Positions 6,742-9,004 of a stretch of DNA of 35,054 nucleotides are shown piece after piece. Position 1 is the first letter of the stretch, and every line of letters begins with the position of its first letter. The translations under genes and the position numbers were made by a program. The stretch is from Patescibacteria group bacterium (lineage in GTDB: Bacteria; Patescibacteriota; Gracilibacteria; UM-FILTER-43-11), in the NCBI GenBank assembly GCA_018825145.1, contig JAHJFD010000057.1:1-35054 (forward strand), read 5' to 3'. Below the pieces are notes generated by a model. It made no database searches. It had not been told where the DNA came from and worked only from the letters and a program-made list of their open reading frames with translations.

Positions 6742-7980
6742 ATGAAAAAGCCCTATTCAGCCAAAGAATCATCGTCATCCGCACCCAAATTTATCGGCCT
6801 TTTTCTATTGCTGACTTTTGTATTTATGCTGGGATGGAATGCAGGGGTGAATCACAACCAGATTCAGCAGGGACTGGCCCCCAAAACAACGGTTACTTCC
6901 CCCCTGGGCCAGACCGAAACGATCAACATGCAGCTTTTCTGGGATGCCTGGAATATTCTGAGCAGTAACTTTGTCGACCCTCATGCCCTGGTAACCGAGA
7001 ACATGATATTCGGAGCCATTAAAGGGATGGTCGCCTCCGTGAATGACCCCTACACAAACTTTATGACTCCAAAAGAAAACAGGGAGTTTCAGGAGAGTAT
7101 GCAGGGCCACCTTGAAGGAATCGGAGCGGAACTGACGCTAAGAAACGGCATGCTCACAGTTATTTCCCCTCTAAAAAACTCACCCGCCCAAAAGGCGGGC
7201 CTTCAGCCGGAAGATATTATTTATGAAGTCGACGGCAATTCCACCGAAGACATGACCCTGGAGCAGGCGGTTATGAAGATCAGGGGTGAGAAAGGAAGCG
7301 TGGTAACGCTGACCGTGCTCCGAAAGAATTACAGCGAACCCATCAAACTCCGGATTGTAAGGGACACAATCAATATCAACAGCATCGACTGGAAAATGAA
7401 GGGGGACATCGCCATCATCGAAATCAACCAGTTTGGCGATAATACCAAGCAGGAATTCAGCAAAGCCATAAGTGAGATACTGCTCAAAAGGCCAAAAGGG
7501 GTCGTGCTCGATTTGAGGTATAACGGAGGAGGCTATTTGGACGGAGCCATAGATATCACCTCAGAGTTCCTGGAAAAAGAAAAAGTGGTAACCATCAAAA
7601 AAAGAAACCCGGCAGAAGACGAAGTGATTTACGTGAATGGGCAGGCCAGAATGGCAAACATACCACTGGCTATCCTGATAAATAAAGGCAGCGCTTCCGC
7701 TTCGGAAATTGTAGCGGGCGCCATTCAGGATAATAACCGCGGAATCATCATCGGCGAAAACAGTTTCGGCAAAGGCACGGTTCAGAGCGTCGAAAATCTG
7801 ATTGGCGGTTCAAGCTTAAGGGTTACCATCGCCAAATGGTTCACCCCAAACGACCAGAACATCAATGAAAACGGTATTACACCTGATATTGTGGTCGAAA
7901 GAACGATAGAAGACATTGAAGCCGACAGAGATCCTCAGCTGGAAAAAGCCATAGAGTATCTGGAATCACTGGATTCCTGA
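6742..7980 (+). CDS. C-terminal processing peptidase, S41 family (CtpA/Prc-like)
   Basis: 412 residues. An N-terminal membrane anchor (about 17-33) places the protease outside the membrane. A PDZ domain (about 120-195) recognises substrate C-termini, followed by the S41 catalytic core. The catalytic pair is Ser319 in GSASASE (316-322) and Lys344 in FGKGTVQ (342-348), 25 residues apart as in E. coli Prc and plant D1-processing protease. Known relatives trim or degrade envelope proteins from their C-termini. Its last 15 bases overlap the 3' end of the convergent DUF192 gene. Ends in TGA at the expected family length, supporting TGA as a stop codon here. Confidence 0.94.
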   Translation: MKKPYSAKESSSSAPKFIGLFLLLTFVFMLGWNAGVNHNQIQQGLAPKTTVTSPLGQTETINMQLFWDAWNILSSNFVDPHALVTENMIFGAIKGMVASVNDPYTNFMTPKENREFQESMQGHLEGIGAELTLRNGMLTVISPLKNSPAQKAGLQPEDIIYEVDGNSTEDMTLEQAVMKIRGEKGSVVTLTVLRKNYSEPIKLRIVRDTININSIDWKMKGDIAIIEINQFGDNTKQEFSKAISEILLKRPKGVVLDLRYNGGGYLDGAIDITSEFLEKEKVVTIKKRNPAEDEVIYVNGQARMANIPLAILINKGSASASEIVAGAIQDNNRGIIIGENSFGKGTVQSVENLIGGSSLRVTIAKWFTPNDQNINENGITPDIVVERTIEDIEADRDPQLEKAIEYLESLDS

Positions 7981-8436
7981 TGGCAGTATGATCTTATCAG
8001 CCGGATTAACCCCAAACCTAGCGGTAAACCCGGCGGGCAATTCCAGTACGTAAGCTGAAGGCACCGCTGATCCATAAAGATTGCATTGCCTGTCGTATTT
8101 GGCAAAGCAAGGCTGCACGTTTTCTTCGATATAATTAATTTTCAAATCCTTTCCGATAAAAACGATATCGAGCGGAATCAGCATGCCTTTCATCCAGATA
8201 ATCGGATTCGGTTTCTCTTCCTCGTCATAGACAAAAAGCATTCCCGTGCCATCGGGGAGTTCTTCCCTTCCCATCAGGCCAAGCTGTTTTTCTTCAATCG
8301 CCCTGGCCACTTCAACCATGAGTTTGTGCGTCACCTGACCAGTTACAATTTTTAAAAAACGGCCGTCCGTCCGGAAGCCTGCCAGATAGATCACTAAAAT
8401 AAGAAAACCAATAATTATAAAAAAACGACGAATCAT
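7966..8436 (-). CDS. Membrane-anchored DUF192 family protein
   Basis: 156 residues: an N-terminal hydrophobic anchor (about 5-20), then a DUF192 domain (about 35-155) with the characteristic KQLGLMGREELPDGTGMLFVY and IWMKGMLIPLDIVFI stretches (starting near 50 and 79). DUF192 proteins are small, usually exported beta-rich proteins of unknown biochemical role. Its ATG is one base after the end of the methyltransferase frame, so both are probably translated from one mRNA. The 3' end overlaps ctpA on the other strand by 15 bp. Confidence 0.88.
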   Translation of the reverse strand: MIRRFFIIIGFLILVIYLAGFRTDGRFLKIVTGQVTHKLMVEVARAIEEKQLGLMGREELPDGTGMLFVYDEEEKPNPIIWMKGMLIPLDIVFIGKDLKINYIEENVQPCFAKYDRQCNLYGSAVPSAYVLELPAGFTARFGVNPADKIILPSGIQ

Positions 8437-8437
8437 T

Positions 8438-9004
8438 TTAGTGCTTAATCACCATAAGAATACCATCATTCTGGTCAATGGGAATCAGTAATTGTTCAAC
8501 GCCCTCCGCCGACTGAATAAAGTCATAAAAGGACTTTGTTTTATGGGGAAAGGCCATCATGTCATCAAAAACCACGACCGCCCCACTATGCAGACGACTC
8601 TCGATGGCCTTTCAGAAGTCCAGATAAGAAGCTTTTTCACCATCCACAAAAACAAAGTCGAACAGCAGTTTCCTGTCCATTTTTGGGATCAGCCTGAGCG
8701 CGTCATCCAGATAAAACTCAACCGTATCCGAAAACCCCGCTATAGCCACATTATCTTTTGCCTGAGCCAGTGACGGCCTACTGAAATCAATAGTATGCAC
8801 CCGGGCGCCTACAGCCTTAGCCGCCTCGGCCATCCAGAGGGTGGAATAACCGTTGGCACATCCGATTTCGAGAATCATTTTAGAATTTTTTATACGAATG
8901 AGCATGTTCAGGAATCGCCCTACTTCTTCGGTAACGTTCGGAATGTTATTTTTAACGCCATAAGCCCGAAGTTCTTTCAGAAATTTTATTAAATCTTTTT
9001 TCAT
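8438..9004 (-). pseudogene. Class I SAM-dependent O-methyltransferase frame interrupted by an in-frame TGA
   Basis: The frame opens at ATG 9002-9004 and shows the SAM-binding motif EIGCANGYST (46-55), the acidic D73 after the second strand, and FVDGEK (119-124). It reaches TGA at 8612-8614 (codon 131). Read through that codon, the same frame continues for 57 more residues with typical family sequence (KAIESRLHSGAVVVFDD, later LIPIDQNDGILMVIK) to TAA 8438-8440, giving 188 residues, a normal length. It ends one base before the DUF192 ATG. In relatives the interrupted position is, to my recollection, usually Trp (YLDxWK), so TGG to TGA is the simplest history. Without the second half the Rossmann fold would lack its final strands. 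Alternatives are sequencing error or recoding. Substrate unknown. Confidence 0.85.

Follow-up and report, generated by a model that had tools for sequence, protein, structure and literature searches.

A private in-frame UGA at an invariant tryptophan codon, probably a recent nonsense change, in the O-methyltransferase gene of a relative of Candidatus Peregrinibacteria

Single, SNP-like in-frame stops are widespread in bacterial genomes and short-lived (Belinky et al. 2021, PMC7918605). UGA is a leaky codon, read as tryptophan in E. coli and leaky also in B. subtilis (PMC7918605), and in E. coli a tRNA-Trp(CCA) with a 4-bp anticodon stem raises UGA readthrough (PMC13092985). Two candidate phyla, Absconditabacteria and Gracilibacteria, read UGA as glycine (PMC8629427; PMC8080830). 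Here we describe an O-methyltransferase frame interrupted by one UGA. The full read-through protein resembles the class I cation-dependent O-methyltransferases (PF01596; PDB 8c9v, TrmR 5zw3, COMT) in both sequence and fold; the difference is that the copy described here stops at residue 130. The interruption itself resembles the in-frame nonsense polymorphisms and recent pseudogenes of Belinky et al. (PMC7918605), in that one private and likely short-lived stop lies in a conserved gene whose downstream part is still coding-like, the species being represented here by one genome.

The window, that is, the whole stretch of 35,054 nucleotides that we analysed, is contig C1 of a 1.16-Mb draft genome of an uncultured organism (67 contigs, 93% complete), whose closest named relatives are Candidatus Peregrinibacteria. 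For genome-wide counts we surveyed stretches totalling 490 kb, about 42% of the draft. Read on the minus strand, 9004..8438 encodes 130 residues, is interrupted by a TGA stop, resumes for 57 residues and closes with TAA (Table 1). The TAA occupies 8440-8438 and the ATG of the DUF192 gene begins one base further, at 8436; the window contains no ambiguous bases. Retranslation returned the same coordinates as the first-pass annotation, which had described 130 codons, the TGA, 57 codons and a TAA one base before the next gene, and the SAM motif that it reported is among the codons before the TGA.

Table 1. Features of the interrupted O-methyltransferase locus, in window coordinates.
Feature	Coordinates	Strand	Remarks
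O-methyltransferase (COMT-like, PF01596) frame with one in-frame TGA	8438..9004	-	188 codons if read through
In-frame TGA, codon 131	8612..8614	-	TGG (Trp) in 11/11 family orthologues
130 codons 5' of the TGA	8615..9004	-	SAM-binding half (LEIGCANGYST) and first conserved acidic residue, D121
57 codons and TAA 3' of the TGA	8438..8611	-	Core strands 138-146, 169-175 and 181-187; D147/D148; undecayed
DUF192 gene	7966..8436	-	Adjoins the methyltransferase TAA, one base between

In a comparison of 18 genomes of the family, a full orthologue was present in 11 besides this genome, at 44-68% identity. Codon 131 is TGG in every one of the 11, both sister species included, and all of them are free of internal stops; in the family alignment the column of Trp131 is among the invariant ones. 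The first-pass annotation had asked whether tryptophan occupies this codon in homologues, as it does in all these orthologues, and whether close relatives might instead end at the same TGA, as none of them does (0/11). Because all 11 run through with TGG at this point, the open frame 3' of the TGA is not a product of chance, and its earlier description as family-like is borne out. Beyond the family, TGG occurs at codon 131 in 4 of 18 further class homologues, including the three nearest ones, and the remainder encode Phe, Leu, Tyr or Ser at this position. The stop is private to this genome, and the site is a sense codon in all relatives. The draft holds no second orthologue and no other intact copy; the sole other match to the methyltransferase is a distant 309-residue open frame.

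The downstream half shows no sign of relaxed constraint. Amino-acid identity to the sister species G002 is 74% over the 57 codons after the TGA versus 65% over the 130 before it, and the corresponding dN values (NG86) are 0.20 and 0.25. None of the 16 otherwise invariant columns within the 57 downstream codons is changed. The second half is thus as undecayed as the first-pass annotation had claimed, which argues that the change is recent. With dS saturated, the change can be called recent only by the measure of species divergence, unless it is not real at all.

We then compared the read-through product with the protein that ends at the UGA. The Pfam profile Methyltransf_3 (PF01596) matches the read-through frame at 87.3 bits (cut-off 22). 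The match covers residues 7-150 and runs across the TGA. Taken separately, the part before the stop (130 residues) scores 76 bits, and the part after it (57 residues) has no Pfam match. A fold model of the read-through product reached a pLDDT of 94.8, with the O-methyltransferase 8c9v as its best PDB match (E 3.6e-17, TM 0.89). With a profile score above the curated cut-off and a Rossmann fold, the read-through product belongs to PF01596. The UGA-terminated protein does not, its core sheet being incomplete and D147/D148 gone. In the model the truncation falls inside helix 124-135 and costs the protein three of the seven strands of its core. The invariant pair D147/D148, whose counterparts among COMT-type enzymes we take to be the metal-site residues Asp169/Asn170 of COMT, lies 3' of the stop. 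Lacking these strands and this pair, the 130-residue product would almost certainly be inactive, with loss of function predicted from the model. The order of methyltransferase and DUF192 gene is common to both sister species, so the stop may also cost translational coupling to DUF192.

UGA is a working stop in this genome, as the first-pass annotation had held. It ends ctpA (6742..7980) in the window and 68 of the 397 genes with a stop (~17%) in the 490-kb sample. RF2 is an unbroken frame with its SPF and GGQ motifs, and RF1 is present with its PVT motif. Codons aligned to tryptophan in sister proteins comprise 693 TGG and one TGA, the methyltransferase codon itself, and this TGA is the only clear in-frame stop in 279 genes and ~87,000 aligned codons. 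The first-pass annotation had pointed to a tRNA-Sec or a suppressor tRNA as a possible means of recoding. Neither turned up: 41 tRNAs score above the threshold, and a UCA anticodon is absent from those of them that were examined, while a search of the three genomes of the genus gave no tRNA-Sec at or above the gathering score.

These observations bear directly on a change of code. Absconditabacteria and Gracilibacteria belong to the same GTDB class as the host, and the likeness to their table 25 code extends to in-frame UGAs in the homologous methyltransferase: homologues in several other families of the class (L267, L271, L273, L274, L276-L279) carry 2-12 in-frame TGAs in this gene. In the homologues inspected, however, 30 of 46 TGAs align to glycines of our protein and none to a tryptophan, and the site of Trp131 is occupied by Leu or Phe codons. 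Those relatives have several UGAs per gene, mainly at glycine, whereas the host has a single one at tryptophan, retains RF2 and uses TGA as a stop; its UGA is therefore not the glycine of code 25. Code 4, in which UGA is tryptophan, sits no better with one TGA against 693 TGG at tryptophan positions, an intact RF2 and no UCA tRNA found, although no tRNA-Trp of any kind was recovered either. Reassignment to glycine or tryptophan, which the first-pass annotation had also dismissed, has next to no probability. Selenocysteine insertion could be read from a UGA within the frame and a stem directly 3' of it, and is just as improbable here, where none of the three genomes of the genus has a tRNA-Sec at the gathering score and the residue found in relatives is Trp rather than Cys.

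Pattern and structure scans recovered no recognisable tRNA-Trp gene in the draft or in the sister genome G001. Aragorn with introns allowed returned only implausible hits for tRNA-Trp, and an Rfam scan of 118 kb yielded no group I intron. G001 also has no recognisable Ile, Ala or Asn tRNAs, so the missing tRNA-Trp probably reflects incomplete assembly; interrupted tRNA genes are the less likely source of the gaps in the two genomes. Among the tRNAs that were found, one called as Phe(AAA) (L075:1500-1574; C66:30682-30755) has an apparent C-A mismatch topping its anticodon stem, and a normal Phe(GAA) tRNA is present as well. Two tRNA-like sequences with a palindromic CCCGCCTTGGCGGG-type insert lie at L085:60-196 (end of C13) and L080:818-891 (C33), one of them repeated in tandem where its contig ends.

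The sample contains a second TGA at a conserved tryptophan. A TM0106-family RecB-like nuclease gene (L094:220-1791, contig C59), an accessory gene missing from both sister species, has TGA at codon 482, where 4 of 4 class homologues have TGG, and its profile match (243.6 bits) continues past the TGA. The sample thus has TGA at about 2 of 1,374 tryptophan codons. In 58 genes whose stop is followed by an uncovered open stretch, inspection by eye revealed no clear case of a TAA or TAG break; the apparent stops at L174:12563, L094:16528, L094:16496, L042:2540 and similar sites proved to be alignments upstream of true starts or into flanks. TGG-to-TGA accounts for ~17% of the transition routes to nonsense and two of two would occur by chance in ~3% of cases, so the pair leans weakly toward UGA tolerance at tryptophan and against a nonsense reading. 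Because the methyltransferase case was preselected, the independent weight of the two is ~17%. Chance suffices to explain them, and we regard them as a faint hint of leaky UGA-as-tryptophan reading, not as evidence. A Peregrinibacteria lineage that reads UGA leakily as tryptophan, so that single UGAs persist at conserved tryptophans while UGA still works as a stop, is accordingly a long shot.

The reading that we favour, with a probability of about 0.62, is a private, recent single-base nonsense change from TGG to a UGA stop in a single-copy O-methyltransferase gene. One base change would have converted the invariant Trp codon 131 into an ordinary stop. This stop may have reached fixation in the population, or the consensus may have captured a polymorphism among strains. 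Translation would then end after 130 residues, and full-length enzyme would arise only in traces, through background misreading of UGA by tRNA-Trp. We infer a recent origin for the change and a genuine base at this position. A wrong base in the consensus of the metagenome assembly, with cells that carry TGG and an intact gene, is a possible but considerably less probable account. It would suit a draft that is split into 67 contigs and comes from an uncultured organism, a single changed base, downstream codons without any decay, and a gene intact in both sister species and across the family. It sits less easily with a window free of ambiguous bases, and with the lack of any other clear in-frame stop in the 279 sister-matched genes, from which we conclude that the draft is not error-ridden.

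Of the options named by the first-pass annotation (nonsense mutation, assembly error, readthrough), recent nonsense is thus preferred, and regulated readthrough has nothing positive in its favour. Tolerated or regulated readthrough, in which a near-cognate tRNA-Trp decodes UGA as tryptophan, lightly expressed genes tolerate this and full-length enzyme is made, strikes us as improbable. It can draw on the intact second half of the methyltransferase, on two independent genes with TGA at an invariant tryptophan in 490 kb, where neither TAA nor TAG clearly breaks a gene, on a stem directly after the TGA, on the leakiness of UGA in E. coli and B. subtilis (PMC7918605), and on the precedent of the 4-bp-stem tRNA-Trp(CCA) in E. 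coli (PMC13092985), the corresponding tRNA-Trp gene not having been found in the draft. The present case shares with that precedent a UGA at a tryptophan position and no UCA tRNA found; efficient decoding, however, has no support here. This stem, which begins right at the TGA's 3' side, is a perfect 9-bp one (AAGGCCATC/GATGGCCTT, 8520-8611, minus strand), of a kind found at 0.08% of positions. It is missing from the relatives, which have TGG there anyway, and from the RecB-like nuclease gene, and we therefore take it to be chance. No relative has TGA at codon 131, so nothing is conserved at the UGA, and orthologues share neither the UGA nor the downstream stem, contrary to what programmed readthrough would lead one to expect. 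Only about two tryptophan codons in the sample are affected, and RF2 is intact. The most likely ranking places the nonsense change or polymorphism ahead of the consensus base error, with tolerated UGA-as-tryptophan readthrough a distant third.

The result is an ordinary one and does not look like a change of the genetic code. As it stands its weight is small, such in-frame nonsense changes being common in bacterial genomes. The locus does provide a clean control: Peregrinibacteria of this family keep UGA as a stop together with RF2, although cousin families of the class read UGA as glycine. If the full-length protein were found, it would offer a rare view of a lineage that tolerates UGA as tryptophan.
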